A DNA stretch of 64,000 bases from a virus: the IMG/VR virus record IMGVR_UViG_3300048772_000150, positions 1-64,000 of that record; one strand, given 5' to 3'. Both the position numbers and the translations under genes were made by a program. Below are positions 8,553 through 54,861 of the stretch, piece after piece. Under the pieces are notes generated by a model. That model ran no database searches. It saw nothing but the letters and a program-made list of their open reading frames with translations, and was not told where the DNA came from. Numbering within the stretch: position 1 is the first letter of the stretch; every line of letters starts with the position of its first letter.

Positions 8553-9887
8553 TCAAGCCGCCATCGCTCGGAGGAAAATACCCCGCGAGCCGTTTACATC
8601 CCTGTGAAGTCCGTTGATCCATTCCCTTGAACCAACATCAATAATCACACCGCTTCGGGAGTCGGTGCATGTGGTCCACGCTTCGCTGCAATCCACTATG
8701 ATCTTGCCACGCTTGTAGGCCGACCAAATCAGGAATTGCTTGAAGCGATAGTGACCAAGGGATAGCATCGACCGGACGGAGCGGCTACCAATTTTGCGTG
8801 CGCTCTTGGAAACCATTTCGGAAGTCTCAAATGTCGGAAGCAAAATCACGTCGAAGTTCTTTGTGAGAAAATCGGCCGCACGCCGGTGCAGATCGTCCAT
8901 CAAGTCTTGCACCTTGCAAAAGATCGAGTCGATTCGCTTTTGCAAGTTACGGTTCCTATCCCGGTGACATTGCTTCCATTCCTTGATGTTGCTCAAGCAC
9001 TTCCGCCGCCCAAGCAACTTATCAAGCTGCAAGAGCATTGGTCGTATCTTGGCGGCAAAGCCGTGGCCGATAAACGCACAATCACTAAGAGAGTAGGTAG
9101 CGAGAAAAGTTCTTACGCCGGGGTCGCAAGCGACGGTTTTCCTACCTTGGCTCTCGGCAGCAACCGGCACCTTGACCTTACACGTCAGAAACCATCTACC
9201 ATGCTCTCGCACAACAACCGCCATTTTCCCGGCAGATTCGCTCGGAATCGCCTCGGTAAGATGGCATTTCAGAAAGGTTGGAAACGGCCCACCGTTCGCA
9301 AGCCTCTCAACTACAAACGATTGCTTCGTGTCCTTCCGGCAACGGAAGGAAAAGTCGCATTGCTCACCTTGCGATCTTTTCTTAATGATGGCTTGCCGTG
9401 TGAGGTAAGCGCTGTTGACCGCTTCGTCAAGCATTACGCGCGGCACACCGGGAAATTCAGCCGCTACCTTTTCACGGATTGAGCGGCGAAAGGCGGATTG
9501 GTTATCTGCCTCGCTCGGCACATCCTTCTTCCATTCCTTGAAAGCCTCAATAGCGAGGTTGTAGGCCCGACGAGCCGCCCACAAACATTCCTCCCACTTC
9601 TCCAAGTTCTTCGGATAGAGCCTTATCTTACGGCTAACTTCCTTTTCCTTGGGTCGCTCGCCAGATAGAGCGGGAAGTACAAACGACGGGCACAAATCTC
9701 CGGCAGACGGTGAGGCAACACGCTCAATGAACTCCGAAGAATCGAACAACACTTTGCAATCATTCTCGGTTGGGCACCAGAGGCGCGATTGCAACGCGCG
9801 GCACTTGTCATTCCAATATGGCGACAAGTCGCCCTGGATAGTGGCAAAAGCCGATTGCGGGGTTGTTCTAGGTATTGGCTTGGTCAT
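8553..9887 (-). CDS. tnpB: TnpB-family RNA-guided nuclease-like protein
   Basis: 444 residues. RuvC-like residues are visible: 'VACDPGVRTFLATYS' (first Asp, about residue 258), 'ILLPTFETSEM' (Glu, about 353) and 'LHRDVNGSRGIFLRAMA' (final Asp, about 430). The usual CxxC zinc-finger pairs before the last motif are reduced to one Cys (WTTCTDS). An N-terminal 'KIRLYP' helix precedes the body. TnpB proteins are omega-RNA-guided DNA endonucleases of IS200/IS605 elements. The ATG lies 4 bases after the upstream stop and has no clear ribosome site. Confidence 0.8.
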   Translation of the reverse strand: MTKPIPRTTPQSAFATIQGDLSPYWNDKCRALQSRLWCPTENDCKVLFDSSEFIERVASPSAGDLCPSFVLPALSGERPKEKEVSRKIRLYPKNLEKWEECLWAARRAYNLAIEAFKEWKKDVPSEADNQSAFRRSIREKVAAEFPGVPRVMLDEAVNSAYLTRQAIIKKRSQGEQCDFSFRCRKDTKQSFVVERLANGGPFPTFLKCHLTEAIPSESAGKMAVVVREHGRWFLTCKVKVPVAAESQGRKTVACDPGVRTFLATYSLSDCAFIGHGFAAKIRPMLLQLDKLLGRRKCLSNIKEWKQCHRDRNRNLQKRIDSIFCKVQDLMDDLHRRAADFLTKNFDVILLPTFETSEMVSKSARKIGSRSVRSMLSLGHYRFKQFLIWSAYKRGKIIVDCSEAWTTCTDSRSGVIIDVGSREWINGLHRDVNGSRGIFLRAMAA

Positions 9888-32313: not shown

Positions 32314-33783
32314 TTATAGGAAGGTTTTCGTCTTGTTGACTTTCGCACAGCCGGCGAAGAAATCTTCCCAATGCCGGATAAGTCGATCAGTTGACATTCC
32401 TTCAAGTTCCTTGTATTGTGCGTTAGCGTACTGGTCAGGGCAGCTTCGTATCGAGTCTATAAGACTCGCGGCGTAGGGAACCGTCGAGAATGTCGGTATG
32501 GTGCTTGTTTCCTTGACGAGACCTACTGGTGTCGAGATCACTGGCACACCGCACGCAATCGCTTCAAACACAGGCAACGGGCCACCCTCCGACACCGAAG
32601 TGCAGACCAGCAGATCAATCGAGTCGTAGAAGTCCTGCATCGTATCGTATGTAAAGTCACGACCTGACACACGAGAGTTGAGACAGGCTGCTTTGGCAAT
32701 CTCATCGAACATCGAAAACCGCTTCAAGTCAATGCCGCCAAAATTCTTCGCACTGTCCTTGATAGCACACCAACCCAATGTCTTGACTTCTCGTGCCGGA
32801 CGCCGGGTGAACCTCGATAGCCTGGTGCTGGCCGGCGTGTAGAACACGTCCTTTGTAGCCACGGCCTTCACTCCGTCGTAGCATTCCCGCGATACAGCAC
32901 CAAAGCAGCCTCCCCACAAAGCACCGCCCGTATTATTGCGCCACGTATTCGTCGTGAGCAATTCACACGGGCCGCAGCAAATGACACCGTGCGGGGCCAG
33001 TGCGGACCAGGTGGTCGGCGAATGTAGTCCGAAAATCACTACCGCATCGTACTCAGGGAAACTGGCTGGCAAATCCTTCGGGTATCGGTTCCAATTCAAC
33101 AATCGGCCATGCCAACTGCTTGCATGGATCAGGTCTTTGGCAATCGACCCCGTGGACCAGGCTGCCTCACCGATCATCAACACTGACGGCAACGAATACT
33201 GCACATTATCGCCGCTTCGGCCTCGGCAACTATAACCCAAGTCGAGTAGACGCTTTTCCAGAATCGGGAAGATGGCCGGACTTATGCCCCACGTCTCAAA
33301 GACAATGTTCGTCGGACAGGTAATATCCAAGACTGCATTAAGCAGCGCCAGGTCGTACCCCTCTGTGTCAATCTTCAACAAGTCAACACGGATGGTTCGG
33401 GTGATCTGGTCTTTGAAAACGTCCCGATTGAGAACGTCCCGAATCGAAACGACCGGAAGCCGTGTCGTAATGACGTGTCTGCCGTAGGCTCTCAACGACG
33501 GCTGGATAGCCTTGTCAATAGCCCCGCAGCCACGCAACCAATCTGGCAGCCCGTGTCGGGTGATAACATCACTGGGAACATGATGAAAGTCACACGTCTC
33601 TTTATTCTTTTCCACCAAGCAGACTGCATTGATGTACTCATTCTTATCCAGCTTGCGAAGTCGTTTGAAATACTCCGGCACGGCCTCGATAGACACACCA
33701 CACCAATGTTCGCGGTCAGCGAACTTGTCGTTCAGTGTATCAAAATCACACGTTCCGATTTCCAGATAGTTGCGAACCGCCAT
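32314..33783 (-). CDS. FkbM methyltransferase fused to GT-B glycosyltransferase
   Basis: 489 residues from ATG 33783. Residues 1-230 are an FkbM-like SAM methyltransferase ('NYLEIGTCDFDTLND', then 'IRVDLLKIDTEGYDLALLNAVL' in part, and 'NIVFETWGI'). Residues 240-489 are a family-1 glycosyltransferase, with 'DLLVCTSVSEGGPLPVFEAIACGVPVISTP' (in part) carrying the E-GG and EA-ACG-PV motif. The two activities in one chain suggest synthesis of a methylated glycan. The adjacent methyltransferase (33785-34429) is transcribed with it. Confidence 0.8.
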   Translation of the reverse strand: MAVRNYLEIGTCDFDTLNDKFADREHWCGVSIEAVPEYFKRLRKLDKNEYINAVCLVEKNKETCDFHHVPSDVITRHGLPDWLRGCGAIDKAIQPSLRAYGRHVITTRLPVVSIRDVLNRDVFKDQITRTIRVDLLKIDTEGYDLALLNAVLDITCPTNIVFETWGISPAIFPILEKRLLDLGYSCRGRSGDNVQYSLPSVLMIGEAAWSTGSIAKDLIHASSWHGRLLNWNRYPKDLPASFPEYDAVVIFGLHSPTTWSALAPHGVICCGPCELLTTNTWRNNTGGALWGGCFGAVSRECYDGVKAVATKDVFYTPASTRLSRFTRRPAREVKTLGWCAIKDSAKNFGGIDLKRFSMFDEIAKAACLNSRVSGRDFTYDTMQDFYDSIDLLVCTSVSEGGPLPVFEAIACGVPVISTPVGLVKETSTIPTFSTVPYAASLIDSIRSCPDQYANAQYKELEGMSTDRLIRHWEDFFAGCAKVNKTKTFL

Positions 33784-33784
33784 G

Positions 33785-34429
33785 TTACGGCCTTTCAAAG
33801 AGACCTGTGAAGGCGGTGGCATCGCACCCGTGCTCCACGATTCGCGGCAGTCCAACCTTCACAATTCGGCAACCATGAAGCCAATTCAGCATCCCCTCCG
33901 GCGTCAATGTGTGTGGATGGCAGTTAACGTCCGCAGGAATCCATACCCACTCATAAACCCGCAGGACACCACCAACAGGATTGATTCGCTTCACAGCGTT
34001 GTGGACGATCAACTCAGGGTTATGAACGTGTTGGAGCACGTTGTACATCCAAACCTCGTCGAATGTTGTCTCGTCGCTGAGGAATTTTTCGTCAAGTTCC
34101 TCGCCGGAACATCGCAGGAAATTGATGCCGTGACGGTCGTAGCGACGTAGCACACAATCAGGCCACTTACACGGATCGACGACAACCAGTTGGCCGGCAT
34201 TGAAGGCCCGAAGCGTCATTGACACAGGGCCGCCGCCAATGTCCAAGACACTCTTGCCGCGCATATCCAACTCCAACTCAGGTGTGCCGTATTCGGCGAA
34301 CACGCCCATTTCTCGTCCGTACACTTCCTGCTTGAGAAATTCACCGTATGCAACGTGGCTATTGCAGTTGCCCCAGTATGCTGCTTCGCGCTCTTGGGCT
34401 GTGCTCCATCTTTCTTTGTCAATGCTCAT
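33785..34429 (-). CDS. class I SAM-dependent methyltransferase
   Basis: 214 residues. Motif I is 'KSVLDIGGGPVSMTLRA', then 'LVVVDPCKWP' and 'FDEVWMYNVLQHVHNPELI', the Methyltransf_11/25 pattern for small-molecule or glycan substrates. Placed one base after the FkbM-glycosyltransferase in transcription order, it likely belongs to the same glycan-modification cassette. Confidence 0.8.
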   Translation of the reverse strand: MSIDKERWSTAQEREAAYWGNCNSHVAYGEFLKQEVYGREMGVFAEYGTPELELDMRGKSVLDIGGGPVSMTLRAFNAGQLVVVDPCKWPDCVLRRYDRHGINFLRCSGEELDEKFLSDETTFDEVWMYNVLQHVHNPELIVHNAVKRINPVGGVLRVYEWVWIPADVNCHPHTLTPEGMLNWLHGCRIVKVGLPRIVEHGCDATAFTGLFERP

Positions 34430-35539: not shown

Positions 35540-35761
35540 TCAATTCCCTTTCTCTCGGCCCCAGTCAAACTGATGCCAGAGACGTTCGTGAAAATAGAAT
35601 ATGGCCAGCTTCACAGCGAAACAGACCAACGTGAAAATGAGGCAACAGTTAAAGTCGCCAAACCAAAGGTAGGCCAGCCAAAGGCCAACCAAGTTGCTTA
35701 TCGCTTCAAAGGACAAGCCTTTGATAAGTGTTCGTCTGGGAAGGGAAGGGTCAGATTTCAT
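35540..35761 (-). CDS. DUF2061 membrane protein
   Basis: 73 residues from ATG 35761. 'KSDPSLPRRTLIKGLSFEAISN', two hydrophobic helices, and 'AIFYFHERLWHQFDWG' match DUF2061, a small predicted membrane protein. Its 5' end overlaps the upstream gene by 11 bases. Confidence 0.75.
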   Translation of the reverse strand: MKSDPSLPRRTLIKGLSFEAISNLVGLWLAYLWFGDFNCCLIFTLVCFAVKLAIFYFHERLWHQFDWGREKGN

Positions 35762-36818
35762 GGTAATTAGCTCCAAGAAGTTCTCGACCTACGCTGTTTC
35801 TCACTTCACGGGCTTCTTCCATTGTCTTGTACTTCCCGACACGGTGTTTTACACCGTAATACGAGATTTCAGGGTGGTGAAAGCCTTTATTATCGACCCA
35901 AACCCCTTTCACACCGCTCATATTATTGGCTTGTTTGCCGCGATTGTGCTGATTGATCGGGTGTTCAGTTATTCGCAGATTTTCACGCACGTTGTTCAAC
36001 GGTTCCCCGTCTCTGTGGTCTACTTCGACTTCGGCAGGGTCATAAGGCGACCCCATTCTTAATACAACGTCCTGGTGCATATAGCGAGTTATCGAAAGTC
36101 CTGCAATTTTTAACTTTCTCATTGCTCGCCATTTTTGGCCGCTCTCACCGTTTCGGTAGATGGCATTGTTTTGCGGAACGGCCGACCAATTCCATCGGCT
36201 AAGATAGTCAAAATCCTCTGGACTGACCTTTGCCTTCAAACCGTTGGAAAGAGTTATCTCACGCTTCCCATAGAGCGATCCGTAATCCAGAAACCGCCAG
36301 CGATTGTAACTGTCAATAGGCGGCGGGTCATGCGCGACATGGCGGACATACAAGAGTATCTCGTCCCACGTACTGAAAACATGCTGATGCGGGAGAGTGC
36401 CCCAATACCAATCGGGTAGTGCTGCCTTTCCTTGTTCAACGTGGACGAGGATCGGCACCTTTCGTCGATTTAGCAGGGCTATCTCTTCATGTGTTCCGGT
36501 CGAGTAGACTTCTCGATCAAGATGTACGATTGCAAAATCACACAAGTCAGCGAGCCGCAAGTCGATACATCGAATCAGGTGCATCTCTCGTGCAATAGTC
36601 TCAAAGTCACCATTTTTCTTCTGCTCCACTCGACGGGCATGATTTTCCAAATCCTCACAAGCGTAGCCAGGTTGCATCGGTTTGGAACACGGGTCCAGAA
36701 AAATTAGTTGAAGATCGGCCAATTTCTCTTTGATTTCATTTCGCCAGCCCGTGCCAAAATCCTTAGCATTGTCAATCGGGCCAGATAGATAGACACGATT
36801 ATAAAACAGTCGATTCAT
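35751..36818 (-). CDS. nucleoside deoxyribosyltransferase-like domain fused to HNH/AP2 endonuclease
   Basis: 355 residues from ATG 36818. Residues 1-150 resemble DUF4406/nucleoside 2-deoxyribosyltransferases ('RVYLSGPIDNAKDFGTGWR', 'FLDPCSKP', 'YSTGTHEEIALLNRRKVPILVHV' in parts). Residues 175-355 are an HNH homing endonuclease with 'VEVDHRDGEPLNNVRENLRI' and an AP2-like 'SGVKGVWVDNKGFHHPEI' domain. The second part has no start codon of its own and reads on in frame. A homing endonuclease seems to have fused to the end of the host gene. Confidence 0.75.
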   Translation of the reverse strand: MNRLFYNRVYLSGPIDNAKDFGTGWRNEIKEKLADLQLIFLDPCSKPMQPGYACEDLENHARRVEQKKNGDFETIAREMHLIRCIDLRLADLCDFAIVHLDREVYSTGTHEEIALLNRRKVPILVHVEQGKAALPDWYWGTLPHQHVFSTWDEILLYVRHVAHDPPPIDSYNRWRFLDYGSLYGKREITLSNGLKAKVSPEDFDYLSRWNWSAVPQNNAIYRNGESGQKWRAMRKLKIAGLSITRYMHQDVVLRMGSPYDPAEVEVDHRDGEPLNNVRENLRITEHPINQHNRGKQANNMSGVKGVWVDNKGFHHPEISYYGVKHRVGKYKTMEEAREVRNSVGRELLGANYHEI

Positions 36819-36834
36819 AGGCTTTCTTTCAAAG

Positions 36835-37188
36835 TGGAGGCGCGGGGGATTGAACCCCGGTCCCGTGACATTTCCATGTAAGCGTCTACGTTCGATAGTC
36901 GATTCTATTTGCAATCGTCGTCTCGCGTCCCCGAACCGACAGGGTTCCCGTCTGACCATTCGGCTGAGTTGTTTAGCCCAGGTTCCGCCGATTCTCACCC
37001 AGGCGATTCGGAATTACAGCCGGTAGTCAAGTCTCTCCGACGAAGACCATCAACCGGGGCGGTGCTAGGCCGCCATTGCCATTTGATTAGTGGCGTCTAC
37101 TTTGTGGTCGGCTTTTATCGTGGCCTGCCGACCAACCACGGAACGCAACCTACACTTCAACCTGCCCGGTCGATTCCAATTCACCCCC
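36835..37188 (-). ncRNA. ssrA: transfer-messenger RNA (tmRNA)
   Basis: 354 bases. The 5' end GGGGGTGAATTGGAATCGAC matches the tmRNA start, and the 3' end has a T-arm (CGGGG TTCAATC CCCCG) and an acceptor CGCCTCC that pairs with GGGGGTG (two G-U). The phrase AAAGTAGAC before the frame parallels the usual AATAGTC signal. The resume frame then reads GCC ACT AAT CAA ATG GCA ATG GCG GCC TAG, giving the tag ATNQMAMAA. No CCA is encoded. Its 5' end overlaps the deoC stop by 8 bases. Confidence 0.9.
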
Positions 37189-37939
37189 AGGATGGTAAAA
37201 GTTCAAGGTACTTGGATGCCCCGATACGGGCACAGCCCATGTCGAGAAACATCTTCGCCTTCTCATAGCAATCAATACCGCCGCTTGCCTTGACCAAACA
37301 ACGGCTGCCAACAGTGTCGAGCATACACCGCACACCCATCGTATCCGCACCGCCCGTGCTGAACCCGGTTGACGTTTTCACATAGTCAACGCCGCAGTCC
37401 GCACACAGCCGACACAGATCGGCAATCTGTGGCAGGGACAGGCAGCACGTTTCCAAGATCGCCTTAACGATAGCTCGTCGGGCGTGAGCGATATTGACGA
37501 TCTGAGTCAACTCGGAAACTACCGGATCGGGGTTGCCTTCCATGAAACGCCCGTAGCTGACCACAATGTCCAACTCAACCGCCCCATAGTAGAGGGCCTC
37601 TCCGGCTTCATCGACTTTGGCCGTGATACACGAATTGCCGTGTGGAAAACCGACCACGGAGCAAACTCGGGCGGTCAAGTTGCTGGCGAGCGGCACGAAA
37701 CTGGACGGCACGCATAACGAGCAAATGCCGTGCTGATTCACCAGGGCGGCGGCGACCTCAACATCGCGTCGGCCCGCCGTGGGCTTCAAGACGGCCAAGT
37801 CCAGGGCGGCGGCGATTCGTTTCACGCCGCAGGCCCGTTCATTGATCTTGCGGGCAACTTCCCGCTTGATCTCGGCGGGACGGGCCATTGCATTGGCGTA
37901 CATGACATCGGCAGAGGGGAGGATCAGCTTGTCGGACAC
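37181..37939 (-). CDS. deoC: deoxyribose-phosphate aldolase
   Basis: 252 residues from GTG 37939. Class I aldolase features: 'DLAVLKPTAG', 'VCSVVGFPHG', 'AVELDIVVSYG' (conserved Asp), 'GVDYVKTSTGFSTGGAD' with the Schiff-base Lys, and 'VKASGGI' near the end. It interconverts deoxyribose-5-phosphate with acetaldehyde and glyceraldehyde-3-phosphate, so it probably salvages host nucleosides. It lies next to the tmRNA and a deoxyribosyltransferase-like gene. Confidence 0.88.
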   Translation of the reverse strand: MSDKLILPSADVMYANAMARPAEIKREVARKINERACGVKRIAAALDLAVLKPTAGRRDVEVAAALVNQHGICSLCVPSSFVPLASNLTARVCSVVGFPHGNSCITAKVDEAGEALYYGAVELDIVVSYGRFMEGNPDPVVSELTQIVNIAHARRAIVKAILETCCLSLPQIADLCRLCADCGVDYVKTSTGFSTGGADTMGVRCMLDTVGSRCLVKASGGIDCYEKAKMFLDMGCARIGASKYLELLPSWG

Positions 37940-38769
37940 AGTTGGTCTTTCATTAGTTGGCAGTATTCGGGGGAAATGTCGATGCCGATGGAGAGCCGGC
38001 CGTGGGCACGGGCGTAGTTCAGGGTCGTGCCGCTGCCGGCGAAGGGGTCCAGCACGGTCCCGCCGTAGCGGCAGGTTGCCAGGACGGGGAGTTCCACCAG
38101 TTGCTTGGAAAAGGTCGCCCGGTGGCCCTTGCCGCCGTGCGAGGAGGGGACTTGCCAGGTATCGTAGGGCGGCATGACGCCGCCCTTCTGCGTGCGGCGG
38201 CCGACGGTCTTCTTGTCGAAGTAGTAAAACCGCTCGCGGACAAAGTGGAACATATACTCGTGCGACATGGCGCAGCGGTCCCGCACTTGGTCCGGGGTGG
38301 GGTTGGCCTTGACCCACACGTTGTCGTTGCGGACGATCCAGCCCTCGCCCTGCATGGCGATGGCAAAGCGGTGGGGAAGTAGCAATAGCTGCTTGCCACG
38401 GGTCCACAGGCCGGGACGCCGCTTATCTTGCGGCCGGCAGCCGAAGCGGCGGGCGGACTGCTTGTTCTCGCCTCCTCGGGCCTGCCCCCGGCCGCTCCAA
38501 TAGGTGTCGCCCAGGTTCACCCACAGGCTTCCCGTATCTTTGAGGACTGGTATCAAAGCGTCAAAGATGGCGACCAGCTTGTCTAAGTATTCCTGCGGGT
38601 CGGCCTCCAAGCCAAGCTGGCCTTCCACACCGTAGTCGCGCTGACCGTAGAACGGCGGCGACGTGACGATGCAGTCAACCTTATGCCCGTGACGGACCAG
38701 CCAATCGGCACCGTCCAGGGCATCGGCATTGAGGATCGTGGTGTAGAGGTCGGAGTAGTAATGTGTCAA
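37924..38769 (-). CDS. site-specific DNA methyltransferase (N4-cytosine/N6-adenine type)
   Basis: 281 residues from TTG 38769, with GGAG upstream from the T7-like promoter at 38778-38817. Motif IV is 'DCIVTSPPFYGQRDYG' (SPPF, typical of N4-cytosine enzymes). Motif I is 'GGTVLDPFAGSGTTLNYA'. It is the first gene of that T7-like transcript, before deoC and the tmRNA. Orphan. Confidence 0.85.
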   Translation of the reverse strand: MTHYYSDLYTTILNADALDGADWLVRHGHKVDCIVTSPPFYGQRDYGVEGQLGLEADPQEYLDKLVAIFDALIPVLKDTGSLWVNLGDTYWSGRGQARGGENKQSARRFGCRPQDKRRPGLWTRGKQLLLLPHRFAIAMQGEGWIVRNDNVWVKANPTPDQVRDRCAMSHEYMFHFVRERFYYFDKKTVGRRTQKGGVMPPYDTWQVPSSHGGKGHRATFSKQLVELPVLATCRYGGTVLDPFAGSGTTLNYARAHGRLSIGIDISPEYCQLMKDQLCPTS

Positions 38770-38777
38770 TGAGTTCT

Positions 38778-38817
38778 CCACATAGAGAGTCGTAAAACGA
38801 GACGGGGTTGTGCGCGC
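38778..38817 (-). promoter_or_regulatory. T7-like single-subunit RNAP promoter with upstream box
   Basis: Core 38778-38799 contains TTTTACGACTCTCTATGTGG and continues AGA, matching T7 over 18 of 23 positions by eye. Box GCGCGCACAA at 38808-38817, gap of 8 bp. It lies right after the stop at 38823 and drives the methyltransferase, deoC and tmRNA. Confidence 0.82.
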
Positions 38818-38822
38818 GGCCC

Positions 38823-39302
38823 TCAGATTCGGTGCTTTCGCTCCAAAGCGAATTCCAATTCGTACAGCTTGTCGATGCGGGGCGTGACTTGACTGTGCCC
38901 AAAGCAAGGCCACCAATCATGTAATGATTCGTGGACCAGGACCAGCGCCCCGTCCCGCAACGTCATGTTCAAGGTCTCGTAGTCCAACGTCACGCCGGGG
39001 CATGTCGGCAGATTCGCACCTAGCGTGTGGTCGCCCGAATACGACGGAAGGGGCAACACCATGACATCCCACGCTCCAATCTTGTTGTAGCGTCCTATGC
39101 AGTAATCCAAGACGTTCTGCAAGTCCGGGTCATCCGTGTTGGCCCGGAGAATCTTCAAATGAGCCATAGCGTCGTCCAGCCAGATTTGCTCGTAGGTGTG
39201 TTCACCTGTCGTCATGTAGTACAAGCCGCCAACATACGGGGCGAGTACCAGAAAGATTGGAGCGGCCAAGACGATTAGTGTCCAACGGATGAATCGCTTC
39301 AT
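38823..39302 (-). CDS. membrane-anchored HExxH protein
   Basis: 159 residues from ATG 39302. One N-terminal TM helix (WTLIVLAAPIFLVLAPYVGGLY) is followed by a soluble domain. 'LVLVHESLHDWWPCFGHSQV' near residue 120 holds HESLH, an HExxH zinc motif. The third HExxH protein in the window; the other two are soluble/tailed (9892) and lipid-anchored (27017). Peptidase activity inferred. Confidence 0.6.
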   Translation of the reverse strand: MKRFIRWTLIVLAAPIFLVLAPYVGGLYYMTTGEHTYEQIWLDDAMAHLKILRANTDDPDLQNVLDYCIGRYNKIGAWDVMVLPLPSYSGDHTLGANLPTCPGVTLDYETLNMTLRDGALVLVHESLHDWWPCFGHSQVTPRIDKLYELEFALERKHRI

Positions 39303-39303
39303 G

Positions 39304-40413
39304 TTACTCGGCCTCCCCGTTGTCTTCCGCGCCCTTGCGATCAAGGTAGTCGGCGGACTTGCTCTTGAGGATCATCCGGCCGCCCAGGATTTCGCTGTAG
39401 GCTTCCACCACGGGCGTAATGACGATGCCCTCGCGGCCTTTGAACTTGCTCTTGATGCCTTCGGGCGACACCAAAGTCGTCGGGCCGCTGGTCAACTCTT
39501 CAACCATCCTCTGGCTGAACGGACCCTTGTACAGCAACGGGACCAACTCCACGTCATTGTTGTCGCACATGGCCTTCACGATGTCGAAGTCCAGGTAGTC
39601 GCCGTCGTCCGTAATGTCGAACACCCGGTAGCCGATGTCACCGGCCGGAATGCCGTAATCCAGGTCTTGAACACCGGGACCGTAAATCTCCCCGAACACA
39701 ACGATGTTGCGGCGGCCGTCGCAAAGCGTGTTAATCATGTTCAGCACGCCCTCAATTTCCAGCGGCTCCCAGTAGAGCGAAGCCGCTCCCTCGAATTCCT
39801 TCTTGCGGTTCTTCTTGTGGGAGCCCGCCATGAATTGGAATTCACCGTCGCAATAGACCACGCCAGCCCGGCTATTGGTTCCGTCAATCTTCTCGGTCAC
39901 GCGGACAATGGTTCCGGTCGGAATCGCGTCCGGGTAACGATAGTGATTCTGAATATCGGTATACTGGTGGAACATCGGGTGTTCCGGGGCCATGCCGCCC
40001 CACATCGCACCGCGAGGCGCGGCGGGCGGCTCATATTTGAAGCCACGATAGAACTCGGTCACGTTGGCCTGCTCCGTGCCGACCCACCCGGCCAAATGCG
40101 ACAACTCAGGCGGCAGTTTGGCAATGAAGCCGAAACTGGCCACAGTACGCAGACGGCAGGCGGCCACACGCGAAGGAATCTTCAAGCCTTCGACCAGCGA
40201 ATGCTTGAGATACTTCTGAACGCCGAGCTGCAAACTCACGTCGCCGGGCAGCACCATGTCGGGCGGGAAAAAGACCACACTCTCGCCGGCCTTGTGTTCG
40301 CCTTTGGGCACAACGCATTGCGTGCCAAGAATCTTGGCAATCTCCAAGCGGTCAGCCTGTGGGTGGGGCTCAACGGATTTGATACGCTCGACGCTAATTA
40401 TGATGTCGCTCAT
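39304..40413 (-). CDS. RNA ligase (DRB0094/Rnl-like)
   Basis: 369 residues from ATG 40413. The nucleotidyltransferase motif I 'VRVTEKIDGTNSRAGV' has KxDG with the adenylated Lys, near residue 170. 'NIVVFGEIYGPGVQ' is motif IIIa and 'GREGIVITPV' motif IV. 'ILKSKSADYL' is near the end (motif V). The N-terminal 165 residues form an additional OB-like region ('PHPQADRLEIAKILGTQCVV'), as in the DRB0094 family. It likely repairs tRNA or other RNA breaks. Confidence 0.85.
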   Translation of the reverse strand: MSDIIISVERIKSVEPHPQADRLEIAKILGTQCVVPKGEHKAGESVVFFPPDMVLPGDVSLQLGVQKYLKHSLVEGLKIPSRVAACRLRTVASFGFIAKLPPELSHLAGWVGTEQANVTEFYRGFKYEPPAAPRGAMWGGMAPEHPMFHQYTDIQNHYRYPDAIPTGTIVRVTEKIDGTNSRAGVVYCDGEFQFMAGSHKKNRKKEFEGAASLYWEPLEIEGVLNMINTLCDGRRNIVVFGEIYGPGVQDLDYGIPAGDIGYRVFDITDDGDYLDFDIVKAMCDNNDVELVPLLYKGPFSQRMVEELTSGPTTLVSPEGIKSKFKGREGIVITPVVEAYSEILGGRMILKSKSADYLDRKGAEDNGEAE

Positions 40414-49616: not shown

Positions 49617-52115
49617 TCATTTCATTTCCGGGGCTCTGATCTTCACCACGTCGGAAGCACCGTGCTTCTCTGCCCAATTCAATGCGCCACGGCACCAATC
49701 CATGCCAATCAACGGCACCTTGGGTCGAAAGTGCTCCACTCCAACCTTCACGACTTCAAGAATCGGCTCCGTCAACTCAGGTACATGGACGCACAAGATT
49801 TCGTCGTGAACATTCATAATGGAGATTTGAAGCACGCCAACACCGGATGGCTGCAAGTCCCACAGTTTCCGTTGTACGTGCTTGGTAATTTGTGCGCCTG
49901 GGCTCTGGATTTCGTGATTAGCCGCCGCCCTCATATTTTGAGCCTGCATGGCAAACGTCGCACCATAAAGGGCCGACGAGACGGCACCACCTGCCGTCTG
50001 CACACGGTCACGACGCACGACCTTGACCTTTACACTCTGCCAGTTTTTGGGCAGCTTTCGGGCCAAGTCGAACAGGGCCTTCTCGATCTTGTTTTCGAGG
50101 GTGAAGTACCGACGAAAGCCGAGGAAGGATTCAATGTAGTCGGCAGGGTCAGCCCACACGACTGCGGAGCCAAGGCCGCCCGGCTGCTTCATCGAGCAGA
50201 ACGCATTGAACGTCTTCTCACGGGCCTTGGGGATGCCGGGGAACTTCTTGAAGAACCCTTGCTCGGCATGTTGCGCGACTTCCGGGGCGATGCCGAACTT
50301 GCCTACGAGGGTGTTCCAATCGCCGCCGTAGATCATCCCGAACACGCCTTGCTTGCCCTTCGTGTACATATCGAATTCGGTGTCTGCCGAATCCAAGATG
50401 TCTTGGTAAGTCTTGCCCGGATACATTTCCATTCCGAACAAGGCGTGAATCTTCTTGCCCGAACACAAGCATTCCCGCAGTTGCGGATCATTGTAAACGG
50501 CGTCAGCGAGCGTCACTTCAAACGATGCGAAGTCACCGAGGCTCAAGATATAGCCGGGCCACACCAGCGGAAACATCTTGCGTACTTCCGTCGTATGCTT
50601 GATGCCTTGCGGATTGAGTCCATCGGCACCGGCCATTCGGCTAGACAACGTGCCAATGACCACGAAGCTCGCATGAAACTTGCCGGCCAGTAGCAGCTTG
50701 TTGTATAACTCTATTTCCTTGGCAGCAATCTTCACGTCAAGCACCTGGGCCGCCCGTATAGCGGCAGGGTGTTTACCGGCCCGCATGATACCGGTGCCGC
50801 CGCAGCGAGCACAACCCGGCTCGGGGCCGTCAAACATGCCGCACTTACCGCACGGCTCGTCTTCCGCTACCTCCCACCCCTTGATCGCTTCGATGTTGGA
50901 CTTCTTGGTAGACGTTTCAATAATCACGCCTTCCATTTCGTCCATCGCCGCCATGATGTAGGCGCGAACCTCGCCGTGCTTGTTGACGTTCACTGGCGAG
51001 TGTTCAATAATGGCCTGTGCCTTAGCAAGCAATGCTTTGATGCCAGGAACGTCAATCTGGAAGCCATGCCACCGGACGACGGCCACCATGCAGGCTAGGA
51101 TTGAATCATCGTCGCCCGGCTCCGGGCTGCCAAAATGCTTGTCGAGAGCCCTCGTAAAAACTATATCGTCCGTAGCATAGTCTCGGGCGTTCGTGTGAGT
51201 GGCCCAGTGGTCGATATGCTTCTGAATGACTCCGGGCCAAGCAACGCCAAGTAGTTTGTCATCTTCCTTGGGCTTCCTGGTGCGGGCATCGTCGTCCGTT
51301 TCCTCGTCAAGACCGAGGGTATCGACGGGCAACTTCTCGGGCACGGCTACCTTGATCTTGCCTTTTTTCTTGCCCCACACTTCCCAGTTTTTCTCTTTGC
51401 TGGAAACGGCCAAGGCGGTGGGCGCGTAGCCAAACTCGTAGGGTCGGAACTTGGTATCCAACTCCACGTCTTTGAAGTGATATTTAGGCTTCAACCCCAT
51501 AGCATGTTCAGCCAAGAACTTGAGGCCACCGGCCGGATTGAAGCGCAGCACTACATCCTTGAATTCGGTGTCAAGATCACCAAAGCGGTCGTGACGGTCG
51601 AAGACTTGCCACTTGGGAGCGTCCGGGTCAGCGGACTTCGCAAAGAAGATGCTGTCGAGTTGGATACGCCGTTCCAATTCGGCCGCGAGCGCGTAGGCGA
51701 GAGCGGTAGGCACCCGTTTGATTCGGATGTCTTCCCGTGCCATGAGAGCCTGATACGGACCCTTGCGGCTGTGCAAGAGTAGGTCCAGGGCAGAGGCAGG
51801 CTTGACACACGGCCCGTCTTGGCCTTGTGGTTCAAGTGCTGCAATCTCGTCAATGTGCGCGGCAGGAATCCAGTCGCGCGGACATAGACGAAAGACCGTG
51901 TAGCATTTGACGATCATAAAAATATCAAATGTTAGGTTGAAGCCGACAATAGCGTGCTCACAGAACCATTCAATAAGATCGAGCGTCTTGCCGACTGGCT
52001 CCCGCCAAACTTCGTAGAGTGTGATCGGGCCTTCTTCCACGGCATACTGAATCAGTACAGGCATACCGTAGAGACCGCACGTTTCTGTATCAACGTACAA
52101 TTTTTTAAGAGGCAT
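49617..52115 (-). CDS. family A DNA polymerase with 3'-5' exonuclease domain
   Basis: 832 residues. Exonuclease motif I is 'LYVDTETCGLYG' near residue 9, II 'VGFNLTFDIF', III 'DYATDDIVF'. Polymerase motif A is 'SLGDFASFEVTLADAV' (DxASFE, near residue 530), B 'KQGVFGMIYGGD', C 'NVHDEILCVHV'. A four-Cys insertion (CGKCGMFDG...CARCGGTG) lies near residue 430. No 5'-nuclease domain. This is the phage replicative polymerase. Large for T7-type enzymes. Confidence 0.9.
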   Translation of the reverse strand: MPLKKLYVDTETCGLYGMPVLIQYAVEEGPITLYEVWREPVGKTLDLIEWFCEHAIVGFNLTFDIFMIVKCYTVFRLCPRDWIPAAHIDEIAALEPQGQDGPCVKPASALDLLLHSRKGPYQALMAREDIRIKRVPTALAYALAAELERRIQLDSIFFAKSADPDAPKWQVFDRHDRFGDLDTEFKDVVLRFNPAGGLKFLAEHAMGLKPKYHFKDVELDTKFRPYEFGYAPTALAVSSKEKNWEVWGKKKGKIKVAVPEKLPVDTLGLDEETDDDARTRKPKEDDKLLGVAWPGVIQKHIDHWATHTNARDYATDDIVFTRALDKHFGSPEPGDDDSILACMVAVVRWHGFQIDVPGIKALLAKAQAIIEHSPVNVNKHGEVRAYIMAAMDEMEGVIIETSTKKSNIEAIKGWEVAEDEPCGKCGMFDGPEPGCARCGGTGIMRAGKHPAAIRAAQVLDVKIAAKEIELYNKLLLAGKFHASFVVIGTLSSRMAGADGLNPQGIKHTTEVRKMFPLVWPGYILSLGDFASFEVTLADAVYNDPQLRECLCSGKKIHALFGMEMYPGKTYQDILDSADTEFDMYTKGKQGVFGMIYGGDWNTLVGKFGIAPEVAQHAEQGFFKKFPGIPKAREKTFNAFCSMKQPGGLGSAVVWADPADYIESFLGFRRYFTLENKIEKALFDLARKLPKNWQSVKVKVVRRDRVQTAGGAVSSALYGATFAMQAQNMRAAANHEIQSPGAQITKHVQRKLWDLQPSGVGVLQISIMNVHDEILCVHVPELTEPILEVVKVGVEHFRPKVPLIGMDWCRGALNWAEKHGASDVVKIRAPEMK

Positions 52116-54545: not shown

Positions 54546-54564
54546 GATCTTCTCCAAAAGTTAA

Positions 54565-54635
54565 TGGCCCCGGTGGGAATCGAACCCACGCTTAGGACTC
54601 TTAATGGCCTCGACCTACCACTGGACTACGGGGCT
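54565..54635 (-). tRNA. tRNA-like gene, probable anticodon UAA
   Basis: 71 bases. Acceptor AGCCCCG/CGGGGCC with a mismatch at the first pair, T-arm GTGGG TTCGATT CCCAC. Anticodon loop ATTAAGA gives UAA, but a Leu tRNA should have a long variable arm and this has four bases. One mismatch each in the D and anticodon stems. No CCA encoded. It may be degenerate or atypical. Confidence 0.6.
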
Positions 54636-54637
54636 AT

Positions 54638-54774
54638 TGGCACACAGGGCTGGGATTGAACCAGCGGGCATTGACTAATGAGCGGCGTCCCCTTACAAGC
54701 CTCACTCCATCGTATTACCATCGGTCTCATTGGGGTTCGAGGCCGATCCGGGGTTCCCCACCCGGTTCCCGTGT
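54638..54774 (-). tRNA. tRNA-like gene with about 50-60 extra bases, CCA encoded
   Basis: 137 bases. The ends pair well: ACACGGG with CCTGTGT (one G-U), discriminator G, encoded CCA. T-arm GCTGG TTCAATC CCAGC is canonical. Between are several hairpins (CCGGG..CCCGG; ATCGG..CCGAT; AGTGAGGC..GCCGCTCATT), too many for a normal tRNA. An intron or extra-long arms are possible. Anticodon not assignable by eye. Confidence 0.5.
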
Positions 54775-54788
54775 GATACACTTAGAAG

Positions 54789-54861
54789 CTCCGGGGGAGA
54801 GGCTTGAACTCCCGACCCAATGATTAACAATCATTTGCGCTACCAACTGCGCCACCCCGGA
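54789..54861 (-). tRNA. tRNA-Asn(GUU)
   Basis: 73 bases. Acceptor TCCGGGG/CCCCGGA, discriminator G, anticodon loop TTGTTAA with GTT, T-arm GGGAG TTCAAGC CTCTC with typical bases. D-arm GCGC AGTTGGTA GCGC. Canonical cloverleaf; no CCA encoded. Confidence 0.88.

Follow-up and report, generated by a model that had tools for sequence, protein, structure and literature searches.

A complete one-piece tmRNA with a planctomycete-type tag in an uncultured phage

Introduction

Phage tmRNAs are already known, and the case presented here is in this sense largely ordinary. They have been described from mycobacteriophages and Bacillus phage G (PMC4131195) as well as from huge phages (PMC7162821), and in one survey a tmRNA was found in about 2.3% of phages (PMC9004378). 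The tmRNA studied here lies in a 64,000-nucleotide stretch of viral DNA (positions 1 to 64,000 of IMG/VR record IMGVR_UViG_3300048772_000150; hereafter, the window), which is part of a 69,532-base record of an uncultured phage. Like the tmRNAs of the mycobacteriophages Bxz1 and Wildcat, Bacillus phage G, the Streptomyces BE phages, methylophage Melnitz and the huge phages, it is a complete ssrA that would work with host factors, but it differs from them in its phage lineage, its probable planctomycete host and its one-piece form. The decoy type of mycobacteriophage DS6A consists of little beyond the tRNA-like domain, whereas the tmRNA of the window is complete, with 355 nt and a tag frame.

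With the one-piece bacterial tmRNAs (RF00023) it shares a full-length match, the G3-U70 acceptor, the T-arm, the tag frame and a stop codon in the P5 loop; unlike typical members of this family, it is phage-encoded and scores below most chromosomal planctomycete copies. The style of its tag and the MAA or MAMAA end resemble those of chromosomal tmRNAs of Planctomycetota (Pirellulales, and Brocadiia with AEYPMAMAA and ANNQMAMAA). For recognition by ClpXP, the terminal Ala-Ala-carboxylate was reported to be most important, and a change of the antepenultimate leucine to result in a modest rise in KM (PMC7652416).

Results

Identity and architecture of the tmRNA

ARAGORN placed a tmRNA with the tag ATNQMAMAA on the minus strand at 36834–37188 (5' end at 37188), and the Rfam model RF00023 was matched over its full length (1–374) with 120.4 bits, compared to a gathering score of 47, and an E-value of 1.7e-46 over the window. 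The match is far beyond chance, and the identity as a one-piece tmRNA is confirmed. The original prediction of a phage-encoded tmRNA, for which a covariance-model search had been suggested as a check, was borne out by both programs and by a virus record that carries phage replication genes and has syntenic relatives; the strand, for which the prediction made no call, is the minus strand.

The acceptor is formed by GGGGGUG (37182–37188, minus strand) and CGCCUCC (36836–36842, minus strand), as assigned from the sequence and the alignment, and includes the alanine determinant G3-U70. The discriminator A is located at 36835, where the original prediction ended; the end called by ARAGORN takes in one more base (C). 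The gene does not encode the 3' CCA; the sequence here reads CCTCCACTTT. The tag frame (37065–37094, minus strand) reads GCC ACT AAT CAA ATG GCA ATG GCG GCC TAG, which corresponds to ATNQMAMAA and a stop. It is directly preceded by GUAGAC, with an A at -4, and the stop codon occupies the loop closed by a GGCGG/CCGCC helix (P5), as in other tmRNAs. The complete architecture that had been predicted (GGGGGTG/CGCCTCC acceptor, T-arm, resume signal and ATNQMAMAA frame) was recovered.

Insertion site and genome context

All genes of the record that passed the codon-usage call are on the minus strand. Among them are genes for a family A DNA polymerase (49617–52115, minus strand), a helicase, an exonuclease, DNA and RNA ligases and several DNA methyltransferases. 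The window also encodes a TnpB/Cas12f-like transposase-associated protein (8553–9887) and a protein that combines FkbM-type methyltransferase and glycosyltransferase domains (32314–33855).

Upstream of the tmRNA lies a gene for a DeoC/LacD-family aldolase (deoC-like; 37181–37906, minus strand, start codon uncertain), the TGA stop codon of which is supplied by the initial 8 nt of the tmRNA. The downstream gene (35751–36818, minus strand) encodes an N-terminal domain and a C-terminal HNH endonuclease domain. In two related phages, G001 and G005, nothing separates these two genes: the stop codon of the first overlaps the second or lies right against it, and in G005 the junction reads CCATGAAGAAAACCATGAACCG. 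A third relative, G002, has approximately 200 bases between them, without a tmRNA. Judged from these sequences, the tmRNA looks like a clean insertion into a phage operon. A gain at the deoC junction, rather than a loss from it, is suggested by the rarity of the tmRNA in the clade.

The N-terminal domain of the downstream gene is homologous to a stand-alone gene in G001. The HNH domain is thus fused to the gene directly beside the inserted tmRNA, and the stand-alone gene in G001 has no such fusion. The endonuclease domain may have helped the rearrangement at this site.

No site resembling a promoter was detected from 36500 to 39500, which fits co-transcription of the tmRNA with its neighbours but does not prove it. 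The minus strand of the window carries TTTTACGACTCTCTATGTG plus 4 bases in six near-identical copies (13232, 18325, 38779, 46405, 52899 and 63837). These fit 15–18 of 23 positions of the consensus T7 promoter. A single-subunit RNA polymerase (PF00940) was found neither in the record nor in five relatives, although the phage T7 control matched. The copies may represent either a promoter of the phage or an element at gene starts. Eight related elements (107, 2739, 4637, 7703, 17819, 17968, 24519 and 25558) resemble sigma-70-like promoters in minus-strand reading, with TTGACTTCTG followed by a TATRRT-like hexamer.

SmpB (PF01668) was not detected in the partial 69.5 kb record, while 10 controls matched; this distinguishes the phage from some huge phages. 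A weaker tblastn check of the record and the relatives G001 and G006 did not detect it either. The SmpB of the host must therefore be used, a point that was counted against a working tmRNA.

Related phages and conservation of the tmRNA

Relatives were collected by searches with the polymerase, which yielded 6 and then 58 viral loci. A tmRNA near the polymerase was present in one of the 58 (L009), and none was found in G001–G005, G001 covering 113.8 kb. The tmRNA of L009 carries the tag ATPMAMAA and is located not at deoC but in a tRNA cluster, the counterpart of which in the window comprises tRNA-Leu and tRNA-Asn (54564–54861, minus strand). An additional tmRNA* call in L009 (GKKNNKPTIKDA) was taken as spurious because of its overlap with the genuine tmRNA and with a tRNA. 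The tmRNAs of the window and L009 are sisters in the tree (support 100/99) and 78% identical over aligned bases, so that about a quarter of the sites differ. On this phylogenetic evidence they represent a single phage tmRNA lineage sitting at different genome positions.

Other routes to relatives were less productive. The exact tag pattern had no match in viral contigs, the locus showed no DNA similarity to GenBank phages, the RNA ligase as a probe recovered no relatives, and among cultured phages polymerase and helicase gave only distant matches (<40% identity), without a clue to the host. The tRNA-Asn(GUU) of the window (54788–54861) recurs in many members of the clade (L004, L008, L415–L464), located upstream of the polymerase. 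Six viral contigs (L396, L398, L400, L405, L411 and L412) carry a tmRNA with the tag VEENFALAA, i.e., with valine in place of alanine as resume codon, and four of the six contain a weak homolog of the gene adjoining the window tmRNA. In an apparently unrelated virus record (L144, IMGVR_UViG_3300037047_000216), a tmRNA with the tag ANSNEAPMAMAA was accompanied by many tRNA-like hits.

The two phage copies were aligned with 13 copies from Pirellulales, giving a structure alignment of 15 sequences. Changes on both sides that preserve the pair were observed for 37 of the 75 predicted consensus pairs, and all acceptor pairs were preserved in 15/15 sequences, with G3-U70 invariant. In the tmRNA of the window two T-stem pairs are swapped and the stem is still paired, and that of L009 shows one change from U-A to C-G. 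The A at -4 before the resume codon, present in the window, was also found in 201/201 other tmRNAs compared. Regarding the pseudoknots, the pairing of PK1 is clear by eye and partly visible in the 15-sequence alignment; the later ones were assigned through the covariance-model alignment alone.

These data bear on the possibility that the tmRNA is a captured passenger without selection, on its way to loss. Its rarity in the clade (one of 58 loci), its different position in the two phages and a covariance-model score (120) under that of most chromosomal relatives (about 150–198) would agree with such a fate, and rarity and score were both counted against a working tmRNA. Nevertheless, although roughly a quarter of the sites have drifted between the two copies, the tag frame, stop codon, resume signal and acceptor are preserved and paired changes are kept, which points to a working RNA and makes the passenger account unlikely.

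Probable host

The closest chromosomal tmRNAs belong to one order of Planctomycetota, with about 70–78% aligned identity to the nearest. The order was called Pirellulales because its member genomes are shared with the order of G016/G222 (Pirellulales bacterium, L057). In the tree, both phage tmRNAs are nested in a mostly Pirellulales group of 20 rows (support 94/96), which includes 12 Pirellulales, four Brocadia-type and, besides the phage pair, two other virus rows.

A syntenic phage block was found in the Pirellulales genome G395, with identities of 62% for the polymerase, 65% for the helicase and 63% for the exonuclease. The block (L364–L370, about 6–60 kb of contig C1) contains an integrase and a tail protein, and the 444 kb contig also bears ordinary chromosomal genes (HlyD, phosphorylase, YcaO). 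From its gene content we read the block as an integrated relative (prophage), by which the phage lineage has temperate members. In the 40 kb of the block that were read, neither ARAGORN nor Rfam detected a tmRNA; the chromosomal tmRNA of G395 itself is cut by a contig end and its tag unreadable. Two further Pirellulales genomes with similar phage contigs have the tags AENNLVLAA and AEENLALAA. Taken at the sequence level, the hosts are probably planctomycete bacteria.

The tag end in Planctomycetota

Genomes were scanned for MAMAA-type tags with ARAGORN as a filter, and the phylum was checked for part of the hits. Among the matches listed were the Planctomycetota tags AEYPMAMAA (relatives of Brocadia), AEEPMAMAA, AEPMAMAA and ANNQMAMAA (a Brocadiia genome). 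In an even draw of 246 Planctomycetota genomes, 117 chromosomal tmRNAs had a readable tag, of which 79 ended in LAA, 35 in MAA (13 of these in MAMAA) and 3 otherwise; as the sample consists of higher-scoring matches, these shares are approximate. None of the sampled chromosomes showed the identical tag, ATNQMAMAA. Acidobacterial and other tags met in passing ended in YAA, FAA or LAA. Across the sampled tags the rule is thus a hydrophobic residue followed by Ala-Ala, with methionine as a usual choice, and the MAA end has, at the sequence level, the C-terminal Ala-Ala after a hydrophobic residue that characterizes ClpXP-type tags.

MAMAA is therefore a common, normal tag ending in Planctomycetota. 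The description of the tag as unusual did not hold, and the suggestion that a changed end protects or redirects tagged proteins found no support, the MAMAA and MAA ends being common in the phylum of the phage tmRNA and the related prophage. The proposed comparison with host tags gave a divided answer: MAMAA ends do occur in the phylum, close to the shared host end that would speak against the original prediction, whereas the two genomes with related phage contigs have LAA. Within 37 Pirellulales tmRNAs, mostly picked as best matches, 29 ended in LAA, five in MAA and one each in MAV, MVA and TAA (AEPKLSMAV, AKYDNNLVMVA and ANDTNFATAA in L330, L343 and L305, respectively). A small difference between host and phage tags, LAA versus MAA, is possible.

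Such a difference could be an adaptation, MAMAA having been selected to differ from the LAA of the true host, so that ribosomes are freed and tagged proteins are spared, slowed in degradation or sent to another protease. The LAA ends of the two genomes and of most best-matching Pirellulales tmRNAs are in line with this, as is the presence of MAMAA in both tmRNA-bearing phages, which, being inherited by descent, counts once. However, MAMAA and MAA ends are nothing out of the ordinary on planctomycete chromosomes, MAA also occurs within Pirellulales, the Ala-Ala end as the main ClpXP determinant is intact, and LAA prevails among other virus-borne tmRNAs whose 5' end is planctomycete-like (VEENFALAA, six contigs). 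We thus consider selection for a deviating tag very unlikely. A role as a decoy, in which the RNA would occupy SmpB or ribosomes to block trans-translation of the host and not complete the process itself, is highly improbable, since both phages preserve the tag frame, the stop codon, the resume signal and the helices, none of which a decoy needs, even though the RNA is phage-borne and such a role has a proposed precedent in the tRNA-like fragment of mycobacteriophage DS6A (PMC4131195).

Discussion

The full-length tmRNA of the window is most likely of planctomycete origin and probably serves standard trans-translation together with the SmpB of the host, its products being marked for degradation. 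The features that can be read directly are the full architecture, the tag ATNQMAMAA, the placement within Planctomycetota and the site between two genes of one strand that neighbour each other in relatives. According to this model, an uncultured phage lineage would have captured a one-piece tmRNA from the chromosome of a Pirellulales-like planctomycete. The RNA would be transcribed together with the neighbouring genes, trimmed and supplied with its CCA tail by host enzymes, and charged with alanine by the host alanyl-tRNA synthetase. In infected cells, where damaged or truncated mRNAs abound, it would engage in ordinary trans-translation with host SmpB, freeing ribosomes for the phage and tagging the products with a normal planctomycete degron ending.

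The comparison with the phylum indicates that judging a phage tag by the LAA standard of E. coli misleads, as about one third of the sampled Planctomycetota tags end in MAA. The tmRNA adds a probable planctomycete-phage case to the phages with a tmRNA of their own, and the comparison with empty sites in relatives illustrates how such a gene can be accommodated in a phage operon.
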